From: Actinomycetota bacterium
GTDB lineage: Bacteria > Actinomycetota > Actinomycetes > Propionibacteriales > Propionibacteriaceae
Assembly: GCA_020161755.1 (NCBI GenBank)
Contig: JAIUOS010000007.1
Span: 62,001-126,000 of the forward strand
Reading direction: 5' to 3'
DNA length: 64,000 nucleotides
The notes below the pieces were generated by a model, which was not told the DNA's origin, ran no database searches, and worked only from the letters and a program-made list of their open reading frames with translations. The translations under genes and the position numbers were made by a program. Each line of letters begins with the position of its first letter. Within the stretch, counting starts at the first letter, position 1. Below are positions 14,801 to 20,611 of this stretch, one piece after another.

Positions 14801-15025
14801 GCCGGCGGCCTTGCGGGTGAAGGTGAGCCCCAGCACCTGCTCGGGCCGCACCTGCCCGGAGCCGACCAGCCACACCACGCGGGCGGCCATCACGGTGGTC
14901 TTGCCCGAGCCGGCCCCGGCGATGATCACAGCGGGTTCCAGCGGCGCGGTGATCGCCGACAGCTGCTGGTCGGAGAACGGAATGCCGAGCGCGTGGCTGA
15001 GCTGGGTGGGGTCGGTGAGCCTCAT
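11822..15025 (-). CDS. adnB: AdnB, lead motor-nuclease subunit of the AdnAB helicase-nuclease
   Basis: 1067-residue UvrD-like helicase fused to a RecB-type nuclease. Together with AdnA it resects double-strand ends. Visible: Walker A GAGSGKTT at residues 37-44, motif II VLLDEYQDTSAAQ, motif III AVGDPCQAIYGWRG, motif V TVHKAKGLEWDAV, motif VI YVAVTRARQLL, and nuclease motif VVDWKTGD with D996 and K998. The ATG at 15025 overlaps the adnA stop (ATGA), and the stop overlaps the nudC start. All ATPase and nuclease residues look intact, which fits the known role of AdnB as lead motor. Confidence 0.94.
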   Translation of the reverse strand: MRLTDPTQLSHALGIPFSDQQLSAITAPLEPAVIIAGAGSGKTTVMAARVVWLVGSGQVRPEQVLGLTFTRKAAGELGARVRRALHQAGVLGDDQEAGEELILTYDAFAGRLVAEHGLMLGIEGDARMITGAARFRLAARVVADTPGLTQLSRLRPASVTQRLLELSSELRSHLVDPLDLADQALAFEASLERAPRNPRGQVYAAVQTARAAMAERLELATLVLRYEELKAELGYVEFADQMAAAARLATEVPAVPVALREEFAVVLLDEYQDTSAAQATLLRGLFSGPTPSQGRGHPVTAVGDPCQAIYGWRGAAASNILDFATQFPNADGGPATGYALTVNRRSGQNVLDAANRLAAPARAEPALVAHGLDLDLVAPPDTPAGRVETAGFATWPDELAALADRAAALHGTGEVGAWSDIAVLARRNSQVADIWAELSSRDIPAEIVGLGGLLELPPIADVVATLTLLDDASANPAALRLLTSPRWAIGIPDLALLGRRARELAAARDSSRARGEGSGAADPAPAAPVDEALVGTDPAAVPSILEALADPGRLPYHGDVRSRFAAFTAELGQLRRHAGDAVTELVQRVVAVLGLAVELEAVNAGASAPLDTFVQAVAAYTDIDADASLAGLLAYLEAEREYGTGLEQAVVSASDSVKVLTVHKAKGLEWDAVFVPGLAADVFPTDRVTGNWLRSAATLPYPLRGDAGALPQLTSVDHQAMAEFGTRLTGQQRLGEDRLAYVAVTRARQLLVASTHVWAPGLVKPRDPSDYFSELAAHAQASVEADDVPPQNPLLGGAATAGWPAVGDTEEWAVRREAATEVALARGRRASGEPAAEPSGLSLDHAELAAGWRRQADALLAAERESARERLAARLPDYLSVTGLGRLAKDPAGYAAELRRPMPRLVTDAQRWGIGFHTWLEHRFRSQTPLLDGEVDAELSGAEFEKLQAGFEAGPYAALVPLAVETPFTLVLAGRLVRGRIDAVFAAPDGRPQVVDWKTGDARRADPLQLACYRLAWAELHSLAADEVDAVFYDLHSAEVVRPSVLPDRAGLEALLAAVPGSVSLAP

Positions 15026-18000
15026 CGCAGCACCTGCTCCCCGCGTCCGGACGCCGGGCAGCTGGTGGCGAACGGGCAGGTGCGGCAGTGGGCTCCGGGC
15101 GTGGCCGGGTAGTCGCCGGCGGCCACCACCCGCGCCGCGGTCGCCACCCGGTGGTGCACCCAGGTCGGGTGCTCCTGCTCCTCGGGGTCGACGCCCAGGT
15201 AGGGGACGGTGGCCAGCGACGCCTGGCCGAACTCGCGCGGCAGGTCCTCCGGCCGGTCGGGCAGCCGCAGGTAGACCGCTGCCGCACCGGAGGGACGGCT
15301 GTGGCCGGGCGCGACCGCCTCGAACCCGCCCGCCGCGACCGCCAACTGGTAGATGCCGAGCTGCTCGAGCCCCGCGATCGCCGCCTTGGTCGGTGCCGTC
15401 CGGGACGTCTTGAAGTCGATCACCCGCAGCCCGTCCGGGGTGGCCTCCAGCCAGTCGACCTTGCCGTCGAGCACCACCTCGAGGTCGTCGACGCCCAGCC
15501 GCAGCTCGAACGGCACCTCCACGCCCACCAGGTCGGCGTCGCGCACCTTGCGCCACGACAGGAACCGCGCCAGGCCGAGTTCGACCTCCACCCGCTCGGT
15601 GGCCGACAGCCAGGCGGCCTCGAACCGCAGCCGGTGCCACACCCGGTCGAGCTGGTCGCGCAGCTCGGCCAGGCCCCAGCCCTCCGCGACCGCGCGCTGC
15701 ACCAGCAGGTGGATCAGCGAACCCAGGGAGGCGGCCAGCCCCGGCTCGCCCTCGCCGCGCGCCTCCCGGGACAGGAAGTAGCGCCGCGGACAGGTCAGGA
15801 CGCCGGTCACCTGGCTGGGGCTCAGCCGCACCACCGCGCCGGCCGTGAGCGGTTCGGGGCGGCTGCTCAGTTCCCGCACCCCCCACCAGCCGGACGGGTC
15901 GGCCGCCGGCACCAGCGCGCGCCCGGCGTCGTCGGTGGCGTCGGCCAGGCGGGCGAGCTCGGTGGTGGCTGCCGCCCGCAGCTCGGCCGGGGTGGCGGGA
16001 TCGGTCGCCCAGCGCCGCAGTTCGGCGGCCAGCGCGGGCAGGGTGAGCGCGGTGCGTCCACGGTCGGGCGCCGCGGCCGGCACCCCCAGTTCGGCGAGGA
16101 ACCGGGACGGGGTGTCGGCCTCGCCCTCGGTGCCGGCGGCCGCGGTGACCACCAGGCGCCGTCGGGCCCGGGAGCAGGCCAGGTGGAACAGCCGGCGTTC
16201 GGCGGCCAGCAGGTCGCGGTGGTCAGTGGCGCCGACGAGTCCGGCGGAGGTGAGCGTGGCGGCGTCCAGCACGGTGCTGACCCGGCGTCCGACCGGCCAG
16301 ACGCCCTCCTGCACGCCGGCGACCACCACCAGGTCCCATTCGCGTCCGCGGGCCCGGTGCGCGGTGAGCACCTGGACGCCGCGGCGGCGCAGCCGTGACT
16401 CCCGCTCGTGGTCGGCCGGGATCTGCTGGCTCGCGAGTTCGGCCAGGAACGCCCGCACCCCCGCCACGCCGCCGCGGCGGTCAGCCTCGGCGGCGGTGTC
16501 GAAGAACGCGCACAGCGCGTCCAGGTCGGCGTCGGCCCGGCTGCCCAGCACGCCACCGGCGCCCGCCTCGCGCCGCAGCTGCGCGGGCCACCCGGTGCCC
16601 TGCCACAACGACCACGCCACCACGTCAACCGGCGAGCCGGCCGCCACCCGCTTGCGCGCGTCGGCCAGCACCGCCAGGAGCGCCCGCACCCGTTCCACCG
16701 CCGGGCTGTCGGTCGCCTCGTCCAGCCAGCCGGTGTCGTTGAGCGCCGCGGCGAGCTGGTCGGCCAGCGTCACCGGCACGCTCCCCTGCTGCGCCTGCCG
16801 CCACTGCCGGGCCAGCCGGCGCAGGCCCAGCGCGTCGAACCCGCCCAGCGGCGAGGTGAGCAGCCGGATCGCCTCGTCGGGGCCGACCCGCCCGGCCGCG
16901 GTCACCTCCAGCGCGAGCAGCAGCGGACGGACGGCCGGCGCCTGCGCGAGCGGGATCTCGTCGCCGGCCACCTCGACGGGCACCCCGGCCGAGGTCAGCG
17001 AGCGCACGATCGGGCCGAGCTGGCGGCGTCCGGCGCGCACCAGCACCGCCATCTCGCCGTACTCGACCCCGTCCAGGCGCGCCCGCCGCAGCTCGGCGGC
17101 GATGGCGGCGGCCTGGTCGGCCTCGCCCGCGCAGGTCAGCACGCGAACGTCGCCCGGCACCGGCGCCGGCGTCACACCCGTCGCCCCCGAGCCGGCCGGA
17201 CGCGGCAGCCGGGCCCGCACCCCGCCCACCGCGTCGGCGATCGTCGGCCCGTAGCGGTGCCCGGTGCGCAGTTCCACCCGGCGCGCGGCCGCGTCCGGCC
17301 GGCTGAACGCCCGCTCGAAATCGGCAACGGCCCGTGGACTCGCACCACGGAACGTGGAGCTGACGCTGTCGGGGTCGGCGGCGGCCAGGACCGGCGCGCC
17401 ACCCGCGGCCAGGGTGGCGACCAGCCCGATCTGGGCGGGGTCGAGTTCGGCGTAGTCGTCCACCAGCACCCCGCCGATCTCGCCGGTCACGGTCGCGGAG
17501 ATCTCCACGTCGGTGAGCAACAGCCGCACCCGGTGGACCAGTTCGGCGTAGTCGAGGACGCCCTCGGCGTCCAGCACGTCGAGGTACTCGGCGAAGAACC
17601 GGCCCAGCGCCACCCACTCCGCCCGATCGGCTTCCTCGCCGAACGCCACCAGGTCGTCGGGCTCCAGCCCGAGCTGCCGTGCCCGCGCCAGCGCCGCGCG
17701 CACCTGGGCGGCGAACCCGCGAGTGCCCAGCGCGTGCCGCAGACCGCCCGGCCAGGCCGCCGGCCCGGCCCCCGCGAGCAGCTCGCGCACCCGGTACTCC
17801 TGCTCGGGGGCGGCCAGCAGTCGCAGGTCTGGACGGCCGGCGAACCGCTGCCACAGCGTGCGGCACAGCGCGTGCACGGTGGTCACCGGCGGCTGCCACG
17901 ACCCCGCACCCAGCTCGGCGGCGACCAGGTTGCGCAGCGAGCTGGCTGCCGTACGGCTGGCGGCCAGCACCAGCGGCGCCGCCCCGTCGGCTGCACAGCC

Positions 18001-18126
18001 GGCGACCGCCGCGTGCGCGACCAGCGTGGTCTTGCCCGTCCCCGGCCCGCCGAGCACCAGCAACGGCCCCGACCACCCGGCCAGGACGGCCGACTGCTCG
18101 GGGTCGGGCGGGGGCAGGATCGTCAC
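15022..18126 (-). CDS. adnA: AdnA, helicase-like and nuclease subunit of AdnAB with Fe-S cysteines
   Basis: 1034 residues from GTG 18126 (VTILPPPDPEQ), chosen because the Q-motif and Walker A (GGPGTGKTT) follow at the expected distance. Motif II reads VLVDDYAELDPAQ, with Asp replacing the catalytic Glu of DExQD. Motif V is degenerate (TAHRARGREWDL). The nuclease domain keeps VIDFKTSRT (D904, K906). Four cysteines, one near residue 778 (CPRRYF) and C1014, C1017, C1023 at the C-terminus, match the AddB/AdnA iron-sulfur staple. In AdnAB the AdnA motor is known to be less important than AdnB, so a weakened ATPase with an intact nuclease is plausible. First gene of adnA-adnB-nudC-csp. Confidence 0.92.
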   Translation of the reverse strand: MTILPPPDPEQSAVLAGWSGPLLVLGGPGTGKTTLVAHAAVAGCAADGAAPLVLAASRTAASSLRNLVAAELGAGSWQPPVTTVHALCRTLWQRFAGRPDLRLLAAPEQEYRVRELLAGAGPAAWPGGLRHALGTRGFAAQVRAALARARQLGLEPDDLVAFGEEADRAEWVALGRFFAEYLDVLDAEGVLDYAELVHRVRLLLTDVEISATVTGEIGGVLVDDYAELDPAQIGLVATLAAGGAPVLAAADPDSVSSTFRGASPRAVADFERAFSRPDAAARRVELRTGHRYGPTIADAVGGVRARLPRPAGSGATGVTPAPVPGDVRVLTCAGEADQAAAIAAELRRARLDGVEYGEMAVLVRAGRRQLGPIVRSLTSAGVPVEVAGDEIPLAQAPAVRPLLLALEVTAAGRVGPDEAIRLLTSPLGGFDALGLRRLARQWRQAQQGSVPVTLADQLAAALNDTGWLDEATDSPAVERVRALLAVLADARKRVAAGSPVDVVAWSLWQGTGWPAQLRREAGAGGVLGSRADADLDALCAFFDTAAEADRRGGVAGVRAFLAELASQQIPADHERESRLRRRGVQVLTAHRARGREWDLVVVAGVQEGVWPVGRRVSTVLDAATLTSAGLVGATDHRDLLAAERRLFHLACSRARRRLVVTAAAGTEGEADTPSRFLAELGVPAAAPDRGRTALTLPALAAELRRWATDPATPAELRAAATTELARLADATDDAGRALVPAADPSGWWGVRELSSRPEPLTAGAVVRLSPSQVTGVLTCPRRYFLSREARGEGEPGLAASLGSLIHLLVQRAVAEGWGLAELRDQLDRVWHRLRFEAAWLSATERVEVELGLARFLSWRKVRDADLVGVEVPFELRLGVDDLEVVLDGKVDWLEATPDGLRVIDFKTSRTAPTKAAIAGLEQLGIYQLAVAAGGFEAVAPGHSRPSGAAAVYLRLPDRPEDLPREFGQASLATVPYLGVDPEEQEHPTWVHHRVATAARVVAAGDYPATPGAHCRTCPFATSCPASGRGEQVLR

Positions 18127-18175
18127 GCCGACTATGCAACCACGTGCCGCCGACAACGCCGACCCGCACGGCCGC

Positions 18176-18203
18176 CCCGGGAGGATCCGCCCCCGATTCG
18201 CCC
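18176..18203 (+). repeat. Left copy of inverted repeat flanking the DUF559 gene
   Basis: CCCGGGAGGATCC, six bases, then GATTCGCCC. The same arrangement with the same six-base spacing recurs in inverse orientation at 19226-19253, with one C/T difference in each block. The two copies enclose the DUF559 gene. Part of this copy (18179-18188) also forms a perfect 10-bp inverted repeat with 18244-18253 just inside the gene's 3' end. Confidence 0.7.
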
Positions 18204-18236
18204 TTCGCGTGTCCCACACTCGGCCACGGGCCGTCC

Positions 18237-19130
18237 TCAGCGGGGATCCTCCCAACCACCCCGCACCGGCCGCGCGTTGCGCGCCGCGCTGCGGGTGGCG
18301 GCGAGGATGTAGCCGGGGTCGTCCAGGTGCTCCCACCCGAACCTGAGCACGTGGTAACCGGCCGCCTCGAAGGTGTTCAGCCACTCGCGGTCGGCCAGGA
18401 ACTGCGCGCGGTTGTCGTGCACCTCCCGCCCGTCGAACTGGATCACCAGTCGGCACGACCGCAGCCGCACGTCGGGAATCAGGACGCGTCCACCGATGCG
18501 GAGCGGACGGTTGGCGACCCAGTCCACGATCCCCCCGGAGCACAGGATCCGGTGGAGCCGCAGCTCCGCGTACGACCAGGGGTTGCCCGCGCACGCCGCC
18601 ACGACCGTCCGGCGCTCCGCCGTCCCGGGTGCTCCCCTCTGCGCGGACAGCGCCGACGCCAGCGACGCCGGGTCGGCCAGTTTCCGCCGCAGCGCCTCAC
18701 AGATCGCCCTGCCGTCGTCGGTGGCCGCCAGTTCGACGGCGGCGAACGCCGGGCTGACCAGCCGAACCCCGGACGCCTGCACGACGAACTCCCGGGGCAC
18801 CGATCTCCGGCTCACCACCACGCCCCGGCGCGAGCCCAGCGTGGGATGCGCGAGGTGGGCGACCGGACCGACGAGTTCGGGCAGCCACACGCTCGCCGCC
18901 GAACGGCCGTGGATCGCTCCGGCCGGGCCCGCCCACGCCGAGACCGCCGCGAGCCACCCGAGGTTCGAGCACTCGCCGGCAGCCCGGTAGAGCCCCGGGA
19001 GCGGGTTGTCGAGCAGCCCGGCCACGGCCAGGCGCGAGAGGCTGGAGCGCAGGTGGGGGTGATCGGCCACGCGGATCACGCCCTCGGTGGCGAGGATCGC
19101 CTCGATCTGGGGGTGCACACCCCTCACCAT
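18237..19130 (-). CDS. DUF559 / Vsr-like endonuclease-fold protein with AbiEi-like N-terminus
   Basis: 297 residues from ATG 19130 (MVRGVHPQIEAIL); earlier in-frame starts lie in a low-complexity shadow. The N-terminal 60-80 residues look like the winged-helix, AbiEi-antitoxin-type domain often joined to DUF559 (ILATEGVIRVADH...GLYR). The C-terminus has the DUF559 pattern: IPDVRL..CRLVIQFDGREVH, then FLADREWLNTFEAAGY and VLRFGWEHL. This is a restriction-endonuclease-like fold related to Vsr. The metal-binding Asp is present (FDGREVH), so catalysis is possible. Function is unknown; these genes are scattered in many copies through actinobacterial genomes. It stands alone between adnA and the telA operon and is bracketed by inverted repeats. 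Confidence 0.8.
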   Translation of the reverse strand: MVRGVHPQIEAILATEGVIRVADHPHLRSSLSRLAVAGLLDNPLPGLYRAAGECSNLGWLAAVSAWAGPAGAIHGRSAASVWLPELVGPVAHLAHPTLGSRRGVVVSRRSVPREFVVQASGVRLVSPAFAAVELAATDDGRAICEALRRKLADPASLASALSAQRGAPGTAERRTVVAACAGNPWSYAELRLHRILCSGGIVDWVANRPLRIGGRVLIPDVRLRSCRLVIQFDGREVHDNRAQFLADREWLNTFEAAGYHVLRFGWEHLDDPGYILAATRSAARNARPVRGGWEDPR

Positions 19131-19225
19131 CGGCAGGCAGGCCACCTCTTGGTCACGAATGCACAGCCCCACCCGAGAGGATCGGCCCTGTGGACAACCC
19201 GATCTGCCGGTGGGCCGCGCCGCCG

Positions 19226-19253
19226 GGACGAATCCCGCGTGAATCCTCCCGGG
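19226..19253 (-). repeat. Right copy of inverted repeat flanking the DUF559 gene
   Basis: Read on the minus strand: CCCGGGAGGATTC, six bases, GATTCGTCC, matching the copy at 18176-18203 at 20 of 22 block positions while the spacer differs. Conservation of both blocks and of the spacing, but not of the spacer sequence, suggests a functional terminus or binding site rather than chance. Confidence 0.65.
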
Positions 19254-19339
19254 CCCCGGCCTCAGGGTTGGCCCCGGCTGCTCCCCGAACCACTGTGACG
19301 GCGTGCCCGCCGACCCGAGCCAGCGGGCGTGTTCGCGGC

Positions 19340-19371
19340 TACATTGGGGGCCAACGCCTACGACCGAGAGG
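19340..19371 (+). promoter_or_regulatory. Putative promoter -10 and ribosome binding site of the nine-gene operon
   Basis: TACATT at 19340-19345 fits a TAnnnT -10 element 34 bp upstream of the first gene. GAGAGG at 19366-19371 is a good Shine-Dalgarno seven bases before ATG 19379. No convincing -35 is visible upstream. The 248-bp gap 19131-19378 holds nothing else I can name apart from the inverted-repeat copy. Confidence 0.35.
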
Positions 19372-19378
19372 TTTGACA

Positions 19379-20611
19379 ATGTCGACACCCGCGCAGCCGT
19401 CCAGCCAGGGACAGGCCGTCCAGCTCGCGCCGCCGGACATGCTCACGCTCAACGCCCCGGCCGCCCCCGCCCCCGTCACCACCACGCAGGCCCCGGCGAT
19501 GGCTCCGCAGGTGGAGGCCGCGCAGGTGCCGGTGCTCGACGCGAAGGTCAATGACTTCCTCACCGCGCTGAACTCGGCCGAGGAGAACTCCCCCACCTTC
19601 TCCGCGCAGGCCGACGCGGTCCGCAGCATGGGCGACGCCGACATCCGCAAGGCGGCCGACACGTCCAACCGGCTGCTCCAGACCCCGGTGCGGGCGATCG
19701 AGTCCGGCGGCCTCGCCGACACCTCCAAGGTCGGCAAGACCCTGCTCGAGCTCCGCCGCACCGTCGAGGACCTCGACCCGGCCCAGGCCAAGGGCGCGAA
19801 GGGCTTCTTCGCCCGCCTCGGCGCCGGCAACAAGGTGACCGACTACTTCCGCAAGTACCAGAGTTCGCAGGACCACCTCAACGGCATCCTGCACGCGCTG
19901 CGCTCCGGCCAGGACGAGCTCACCAAGGACAACGTCGCGCTCAACATGGAGAAGCAGAACCTGTGGGTGGTGATGGGACGGCTCAACCAGTACGTCTACA
20001 TCGCCGAGCGCCTGGATGCCCGGCTCGCGGCCCAGATCGCCGAGCTCGAGCTCAGCGACCCGGAGAAGGCCAAGGCACTCAACCAGGACGTGCTGTTCTA
20101 CGTCCGCCAGAAGCACCAGGACCTGCTCACCCAGCTCGCGGTGTCGATCCAGAGCTACCTGGCGATCGACATCATCATCAAGAACAACGTCGAGCTCATC
20201 AAGGGCGTCGACCGGGCGTCCACCACCACCGTCTCGGCGCTGCGGACGGCGGTCATCGTGGCGCAGGCGTTGGGCAACCAGAAGCTGGTGCTCGACCAGA
20301 TCACCGCGCTGAACACCACCACGTCCGAGATGATCCAGCGCACCTCCGAGATGCTGAAGGAGAACTCGGCCCAGATCCAGGAGCAGGCCGCCTCCTCCAC
20401 CATCGGGCTCGAGCAGCTGCAGGCCGCGTTCGCCAACATCTACGCGACGATGGACTCCATCGACCAGTTCAAGCTGAAGGCGCTGGACGCGATGTCGGCC
20501 ACGATCGGAACCCTGGAGACCGAGGTGGCCAAGAGCCGCGAGTACCTCGACCGGGTCTCCTCCCAGGACACCCGGGCCGCGCAGCTGCCCTCCATCTCGA
20601 TCGATCGCTGA
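19379..20611 (+). CDS. TelA-family (toxic anion resistance) protein
   Basis: 410 residues, ATG 19379 behind GAGAGG. After a Pro/Ala-rich, probably disordered first 60 residues the protein is almost entirely helical and charged, as in the TelA/KlaA family (YVYIAERLDARL, FYVRQKHQDLLTQLAVSIQ, YLAIDIIIKNN). Family members were named for tellurite resistance but are widespread in stress operons with no metal link. The biochemical role is unknown, and several act at or near the membrane or with ATPases. It is the first gene of a nine-gene operon containing a kinase, phosphatase, AAA+, VWA and FHA proteins. That context suggests it is a structural or effector component of a signalling complex rather than a stand-alone resistance gene. 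Confidence 0.88.
   Translation: MSTPAQPSSQGQAVQLAPPDMLTLNAPAAPAPVTTTQAPAMAPQVEAAQVPVLDAKVNDFLTALNSAEENSPTFSAQADAVRSMGDADIRKAADTSNRLLQTPVRAIESGGLADTSKVGKTLLELRRTVEDLDPAQAKGAKGFFARLGAGNKVTDYFRKYQSSQDHLNGILHALRSGQDELTKDNVALNMEKQNLWVVMGRLNQYVYIAERLDARLAAQIAELELSDPEKAKALNQDVLFYVRQKHQDLLTQLAVSIQSYLAIDIIIKNNVELIKGVDRASTTTVSALRTAVIVAQALGNQKLVLDQITALNTTTSEMIQRTSEMLKENSAQIQEQAASSTIGLEQLQAAFANIYATMDSIDQFKLKALDAMSATIGTLETEVAKSREYLDRVSSQDTRAAQLPSISIDR

Follow-up and report, generated by a model that had tools for sequence, protein, structure and literature searches.

Palindromic elements around a DUF559 gene and its relatives suggest an undescribed kind of mobile repeat system

Described systems and the DUF559 locus

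The closest described counterpart of the locus reported here is the REPtron, the association of REPs with a RAYT (TnpAREP) enzyme, in which a gene of a nuclease family is bordered by palindromes that are also dispersed between genes and in which the types of enzyme and palindrome diverge together, as outlined in two accounts (PMC8266576, PMC3733652). REPs are portrayed there as stem-loops of 20-40 bp (PMC3733652), and more than 100 of them per genome are given as usual (PMC2817692). A single nuclease gene between palindromic ends is likewise the layout of the IS200/IS605 family, as summarised in PMC8266576. Two further systems are relevant because of the protein involved. The EDxHD homing endonuclease I-Bth0305I is described as dimerising on a DNA target that measures nearly 60 bp (PMC3943268), and AbiEi proteins of the AbiE type IV toxin-antitoxin system are described as binding pairs of 23-bp inverted repeats (PMC7319586).

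The locus analysed here belongs to a stretch of 64,000 nucleotides (the window) and consists of a single DUF559 gene between two palindromic elements. The DUF559 system resembles a REPtron in its layout and proposed working, but not by its defining enzyme, which here combines a Vsr/EDxHD fold with an AbiEi-like module, whereas that of the REPtron is an HUH Y1 transposase (PF01797). In contrast to REPs, the scored elements are 56-101 bp long, within the 50-110 bp scanned, with their arms apart; copies number tens in the genomes searched here, and no GTAG tag was seen. The Y1/HUH domain characteristic of IS200/IS605 was unmatched in the window protein and in the seven relatives scanned, and, in contrast to classical insertion sequences with terminal inverted repeats, Pfam recognises DUF559 alone in the enclosed gene and no DDE, serine or tyrosine transposase. 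The nuclease fold is shared with the EDxHD homing endonucleases. However, the DUF559 gene has no visible intron or intein around it, it is flanked by full palindromes of which bare ones are dispersed, and the DNA-binding module of its protein is of the AbiEi type. With AbiE the locus has in common the AbiEi fold, weak PADLOC matches to AbiEi and inverted repeats near the gene; it differs in the fusion of the AbiEi-like module to a nuclease and in its immediate neighbours, a UvrD-helicase/PDDEXK protein and TelA, with no AbiEii nucleotidyltransferase toxin gene.

The block in the window and its empty site

The pattern CCCGGGAGGATYC-N6-GATTCGYCC has two exact matches in the window, on opposite strands (Table 1), with 0.01 expected by chance from shuffles and no pair of matches in any of 100 shuffled sequences. 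Up to three mismatches still returned just these two arms, and the pair ranked first of 23 inverted repeats in a repeat search of positions 17400-20000. The first-pass annotation was therefore right about the 28-bp inverted repeats, their coordinates and their differing spacer bases. It took them for the simple ends of one unit, a reading that had to be given up: each arm is the left end, plus 3 flanking bases, of a self-contained palindromic element of 75-76 bp that has its own terminal inverted repeats (consensus GGGAGGATYC-(~55 nt)-SRATCCTCYC). The segment thus has the order palindrome-gene-palindrome, and its ends are more than single simple repeats. Element A overlaps the last codons and the stop (18237-18239) of the DUF559 gene, and element B lies upstream, 44 nt before its ATG. 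A simple two-ended transposon with 28-bp ends was ruled out, since each end is a complete element that is also found alone.

Table 1. Features of the DUF559 locus, in window coordinates
Feature	Position	Strand	Remarks
Left neighbour, UvrD-helicase/PD-(D/E)XK protein	15022..18132	-	Pfam
28-bp arm of element A	18176..18203	+	left end of A plus 3 flanking bases
Element A, 75-bp palindromic	18179..18253	+	GGGAGGATCC...GGATCCTCCC; 3' side of DUF559 gene; model match G000:C7:80178-80254
Inserted unit, element-gene-element, 1072 bp	18179..19250		DUF559-free spacer between adnB-like gene and telA in 18 other genomes of the genus
DUF559 gene, 297 aa	18237..19130	-	ATG at 19130; GTG at 19145 possible
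Element B, 76-bp palindromic	19175..19250	-	GGGAGGATTC...GATCCTCTC on minus strand; model match G000:C7:81174-81251
28-bp arm of element B	19226..19253	-	left end of B plus 3 flanking bases
Right neighbour, TelA	19382..20611	+	Pfam PF05816, E 2.5e-94

Full copies of the element hardly differ in length (77-79 bp, counting one flanking base on either side). In their conserved arms of ~23-24 nt, an outer box of 14 nt, GRGAGGATYYGCNC, is joined to an inner box that exists in a few alternative types; the centres vary between copies while the ends are kept, and by arithmetic the unpaired centre amounts to roughly 28-45 nt. As regards a GTAG/GGAG-type tag at the foot of a short stem-loop, known from REPs, arms of window-type elements begin with GGGAG, which many other DUF559 palindromes do not have. 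Of 18 pairs proposed by RNAalifold for six copies, one had changes on both sides, and for 28 copies no base pair was predicted; the symmetry therefore resembles a pair of protein sites in DNA more than an RNA stem. In the window and in five loci, Rfam gave no match that reached its gathering scores. With these two results a classical RNA element was ruled out, and the palindrome is better read as DNA. A further sequence, GTCCACAGG, at 19186-19199 inside element B, resembles the actinobacterial DnaA box; it is also present in the right ends of some other copies of the element.

The only Pfam match of the protein encoded between the elements is DUF559 (E 0.0015), which at 18.9 bits falls just below the cut-off of 20.6. 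The AlphaFold2 model of the protein, obtained with an alignment of 50 sequences, reached a pLDDT of 93.7. In the fold comparison, the N-terminal part (residues 9-186) superposed on AbiEi, an antitoxin of two domains (6y8q; Z 10.3, rmsd 4.7 over 172), and the C-terminal part (residues 191-293) agreed best with nucleases of the EDxHD/Vsr type, superposing on the homing endonuclease I-Bth0305I (3r3p; Z 12.4, rmsd 2.6 over 96) and on Vsr (1cw0; Z 10.7, rmsd 2.6 over 101); XisH-type and fdxN-excision proteins were returned as well, at Z of about 6, too low to use. According to the model, the window protein is predicted to be an AbiEi-like module fused to a nuclease domain of the Vsr/EDxHD fold, so that the description of a Vsr-like nuclease with an AbiEi-like N-terminus, initially drawn from the sequence, is now backed by the structure model and the fold comparison. 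Candidates for the catalytic acids and histidine of an EDxHD enzyme are E194, D225 and D252, which are the same in all 50 aligned proteins, together with the nearly invariant E236, D238 and H243. Position 236, which adjoins the putative active site, is occupied by Q in the window copy and by E in the other 49, and the window copy of the gene may be decaying.

The defence role once suggested for this gene found no backing, as PADLOC returned for the window protein only AbiEi antitoxin models, all of them weak (best E 1.6e-6), and no AbiE toxin is an immediate neighbour. The protein search yielded matches in 132 of 197 genomes of the family, often several per genome, and none in plasmids at 1e-8 or in phages at 1e-5; the exact repeat pattern had no match in viral contigs. 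A plasmid or phage origin was rejected on the basis of these negative searches.

The block is situated between telA and the gene of the UvrD-helicase/PD-(D/E)XK protein, which we take to be adnB-like. Among 30 genomes of the genus, telA was found in 25. At 19 of the 25 loci the adnB-like protein adjoins it (at the other six it does not occur within the examined stretch), and only in G000, the genome of the window, does a DUF559 gene lie between the two. The spacer between these neighbours measures 1256 bp in G000 and about 160-375 bp in the other 18 genomes, except for about 0.75 kb in G009. Since 18 genomes of the genus have the adnB-like gene and telA as neighbours with no DUF559 gene, the 1.07-kb element-gene-element block is, judging from the compared sequences, an insertion at the adnB-telA site. 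Alignment of the junction for 11 relatives placed it in a short spacer of no conservation, immediately upstream of a CAGGG motif that 10 of them retain. The empty site that would be expected of a mobile unit thus exists in relatives. No target-site duplication is evident at the junction, with the position of insertion known only approximately because the relatives have diverged so far.

A solitary element elsewhere in the genome (C5:2108-2185), flanked by what are presumably an MFS-type gene and a cutC-like gene, is absent at the orthologous spacer in G026, G015, G014 and G025, which are 4 of the 5 genomes aligned among 11 relatives with a match. Different sequences occupy these spacers in other genomes, L263 in G028 at the MFS-cutC site and L188 in G001 at the adnB-telA site. 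Both spacers may be insertion hot spots.

Palindromes beside other DUF559 genes and on their own

The DUF559 orthologue of G010 carries the element on both sides, and those of G028, G134 and G135 have one element directly beside each, which in G134 and G135 is the only match at E <= 0.001. By eye, palindromes were recognised near nearly all of the first 10 loci, usually on both sides, and many more distant DUF559 loci have palindromes as well, of other sequences. A second set was assembled from 40 further loci of the protein-search list, chosen for ample surrounding contig. Inverted repeats of at least 14/16 were present in 12 of its 40 5' flanks and 17 of its 40 3' flanks, compared with 21 of 683 control windows. 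The similarity between the two flanks of a gene averaged 22.1 in 39 genes as against 12.1 in 390 control comparisons (p 8.5e-8), and the 5' flank of one gene and the 3' flank of another reached at most 16. A flank similarity of at least 19 was observed for 16 of 38 DUF559 genes and for 2 of 106 control genes, the latter being other genes of the same loci taken from our own ORF predictions. When either a flank similarity of at least 17 or an inverted repeat of at least 14 was accepted, the numbers rose to 26 of 38 and 16 of 106, respectively (p 2.6e-9). Removal of two first-set duplicates and two partial genes left 34 DUF559 genes, 22 of them positive by either criterion, 12 by neither, and 15 with a flank similarity of at least 19. 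The same criteria detected 14 of 26 genes of the discovery set, which gave rise to the hypothesis and is therefore not independent evidence; because they pass over the gene of the window itself, the criteria are conservative.

The association extends to three other families of the order, in which 11 of 13 loci, from 10 of 15 genomes and with windows somewhat longer than in the controls, were positive by either criterion. These loci include a near-identical flanking pair of 106 bp in G036; at three of the 11 (L240, L243 and L252) the repeats look like short tandem direct repeats and not like one palindrome. The position of the elements is fairly regular. Among inverted repeats scoring at least 14, for which lengths of 50-110 were scanned, the 5' elements (n=16) end 19-128 nt before the start codon, and the 3' elements (n=23) start, with one exception at +133, from -44 to +34 relative to the stop codon; the scored elements range from 56 to 101 bp. 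Pairs in direct and pairs in inverted orientation were both observed around DUF559 genes. The similarity of the arms rises with that of the proteins (Mantel r 0.15 for 37 loci, with 8 of 2000 permutations as high), a weak correlation that may partly reflect shared ancestry. The idea that DUF559 genes have the same ends in common accordingly survives in part: inverted-repeat elements often flank them, but the sequence usually differs from gene to gene.

Complete units were also recovered in other genomes. G152 contains a full palindrome-gene-palindrome unit, a rearranged second DUF559 copy (89% over the longest piece) with only the 3' palindrome visible (L229:1500-2460; G152:C1 near 939000); another match to the element lies at C1:2334434-2334513. 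In 18 other genomes of the genus of G152 the right-hand neighbour of the unit has a match, and in none of them does a match span both the unit and this neighbour; the left neighbour is not syntenic. In Tsukamurella tyrosinosolvens NCTC13231 (Mycobacteriales), the DUF559 gene of WP_068740572.1 lies between two palindromes of ~40 bp. A blastn search with one of them against 72,556 plasmid records (7.3 Gb) returned 5 places in 3 records, of that strain only: two beside the gene, a third in the same record and two solitary between genes. Two other plasmid DUF559 genes (L278, L279) have no flanking palindromes.

Searched with up to three mismatches over the whole of G000 (4.08 Mb), the 28-bp pattern gave three further matches, each of which runs on into a second, inverted end, and a pattern of the full element gave six copies, A and B included. 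These six served for a first covariance model, which finds more, and 28 copies for a second. With matches on both strands merged into places, the second model (E <= 0.003) located the element 17 times in G000, 12 times in G010 and 28 times in G017, where these elements are of the window type but the closest DUF559 orthologue carries a diverged pair. Fifteen of the 17 places in G000 are outside the window pair, two of them partial (64-66 bp). In a survey of 198 family genomes with the second model, strict filters and 24 candidates scored per genome, 19 genomes had a match at E <= 0.001, outside the genus mostly single and weak. Genome-wide, the exact pattern occurred in 25 stretches, 8 of a Propionicimonas D180 MAG, 6 of a PROP1 MAG and 11 that appear by eye to be chance matches in other DNA. 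Dispersed copies are accordingly documented for the window type in three genomes, with a few further ones in G152 and Tsukamurella, hence for only some of the DUF559 types. The G000 copies whose context was read are intergenic or touch gene ends, with no evident gene interrupted. The solitary elements resemble MITEs: they are short (75-77 bp), do not code, end in inverted repeats and, at one copy, are polymorphic for insertion.

Some copies have unusual surroundings. Copies C and D of G000 bracket a gene for an APH-like phosphotransferase (PF01636; L006:4337-5462, G000:C1:223336-224461) with a geometry that resembles the DUF559 unit, the 3' element over the stop codon and the 5' element ~50 nt upstream; this block is a possible cargo unit. 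At L049:10658-11958 (G000:C1:132657-133957) two copies whose centres are alike too are 1.2 kb apart with no evident gene between them, and there is none between the element pair of L026/L027. At L007:4216-4560 (G000:C6) one copy directly follows an apparent C-terminal transposase fragment, which we assume to be IS110-like. Several elements of G017 (L057, L060, L064, L073, L078 and L079) adjoin or sit between CACGAAGGGC / GCCCTTCGTG repeats, as if nested in a larger palindrome.

A REPtron-like reading, its rivals and its meaning

On balance, we consider it fairly probable that the block represents a small mobile gene and belongs to a REPtron-like system with another kind of enzyme, a nuclease that would recognise its palindromes and probably also spread them. 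Several of the findings above weigh against this reading: the 12 of 34 second-set genes positive by neither criterion, the 16 of 106 control genes positive by one, the two plasmid DUF559 genes with bare flanks, the diverged pair beside the closest orthologue in G017, the lack of a recognised target-site duplication and the Q of the window copy. The earlier suggestion of a mobile unit thereby stands in a form more general than guessed, though not as a simple terminal-repeat transposon, given that the elements also occur alone. We infer that recognition, cutting and movement are the work of the DUF559 protein. A broader proposal makes the AbiEi-DUF559 proteins the dedicated mobility enzymes of widespread actinobacterial palindromes, which would recognise their own arms, cut within the palindrome and rely on host repair for the spread of both the bare palindrome and palindrome-gene-palindrome; this we put forward tentatively, the balance tipping slightly against it.

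In the proposed mechanism, the AbiEi-like modules of two protein molecules would bind the two ~23-nt arms of one palindrome, and the nuclease domains of the bound dimer, with their Vsr/EDxHD fold, would thereby come to lie above its variable centre. Such a dimer on the two arms of a ~75-bp palindrome fits both the pairs of 23-bp repeats bound by AbiEi and the target of nearly 60 bp of I-Bth0305I. Cutting and repair at the centre could then copy into new intergenic sites either the bare palindrome, giving the solitary copies, or palindrome-gene-palindrome, giving the full unit. The chemistry would be hydrolytic cutting with host repair, as in homing, and no strand transfer by a transposase. Two routes are conceivable, one by which the bare palindrome spreads and another by which palindrome-gene-palindrome homes into existing palindromes with duplication of the target. 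A Y1 transposase does not seem to be needed, as none was found in four of the eight genomes tested (G010, G152, G104 and G036). G000 has two Y1 (HUH) transposase genes, at C10:42497-42829 and 95424-95750, and no element is listed on C10. A RAYT as hidden mobiliser was rejected on these two observations.

Other explanations account for part of the evidence. The DUF559 protein could be a DNA-binding regulator or nucleoid protein, with the flanking palindromes as its operators, the dispersed copies as its binding sites and movement as incidental. The autoregulation described for AbiEi antitoxins, through 23-bp inverted repeats in their own promoters (PMC7319586), would be a precedent, and the match of residues 9-186 to AbiEi, the dispersed copies that keep their ends while their centres drift, and the Q of the window copy in place of a near-invariant E would all be in keeping with it. 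We nevertheless regard this explanation as unlikely, because an operator explains neither the second palindrome at the stop codon nor the presence of the gene and both palindromes as one inserted block, and because the putative nuclease residues are conserved across the aligned proteins. Still less probable is that the palindromes are miniature inverted-repeat elements of an unrelated transposase or recombinase, with the DUF559 gene as cargo between two of them. The APH-like gene between C and D with its similar geometry, the copy beside the apparent transposase remnant and the two Y1 transposases of G000 speak for such a passenger, but the association with DUF559 genes recurs with different repeats in many genera, a pattern that the capture of cargo would not lead one to expect, and the distribution of Y1 genes set out above, both their lack in four genomes and the element-free contig in G000, argues against it.

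That the elements are ordinary bidirectional transcription terminators or mRNA-stabilising hairpins is very improbable as their main role, although they may act in this way secondarily. Several copies do lie between convergent genes or at stop codons; however, element B and copy D are upstream of genes, one Tsukamurella copy sits between divergent genes, a centre of roughly 28-45 nt would make an unusually large loop for a classical terminator, terminators would not be expected to share gene-specific sequences across both flanks of a DUF559 gene, and Rfam found no match in the window and five loci. The arms, by their size of 28 bp and their variable 6-bp spacer, also recall a gene between recombination sites as in plasmid dif modules, the layout of dif being 11-6-11. 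The 28 bp are, however, part of a longer palindrome, nearly constant at ~75 bp in full copies, and the two half-sites are by eye not inverted copies of each other. We give practically no credence to an Xer/dif-like module, and it was ruled out because each 28-bp end belongs to a complete element that is also found alone.

The REPtron-like reading of these loci suggests that flanked DUF559 genes in related bacteria represent an undescribed kind of mobile repeat system. Among the open-access matches listed, a body with subscription journals and preprints mostly outside it, there was no description of DUF559 genes flanked by palindromes, and we found no function assigned to AbiEi-like DUF559 genes. 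Gene-specific dispersed palindromes give these genes a concrete, testable role. If the reading is true, it would provide the first function for the AbiEi-DUF559 group and would add a REPtron-like element without HUH, DDE or recombinase chemistry. Palindromic repeats of genomes that lack RAYT transposases would also gain a candidate mobiliser; according to PMC3733652, REPs with a CGTC tag apparently have no transposase of their own. A mobile element whose Vsr-type nuclease is directed to its target by a DNA-binding module like that of an antitoxin might, if this is true, constitute a further design beside homing endonucleases and REPtrons.
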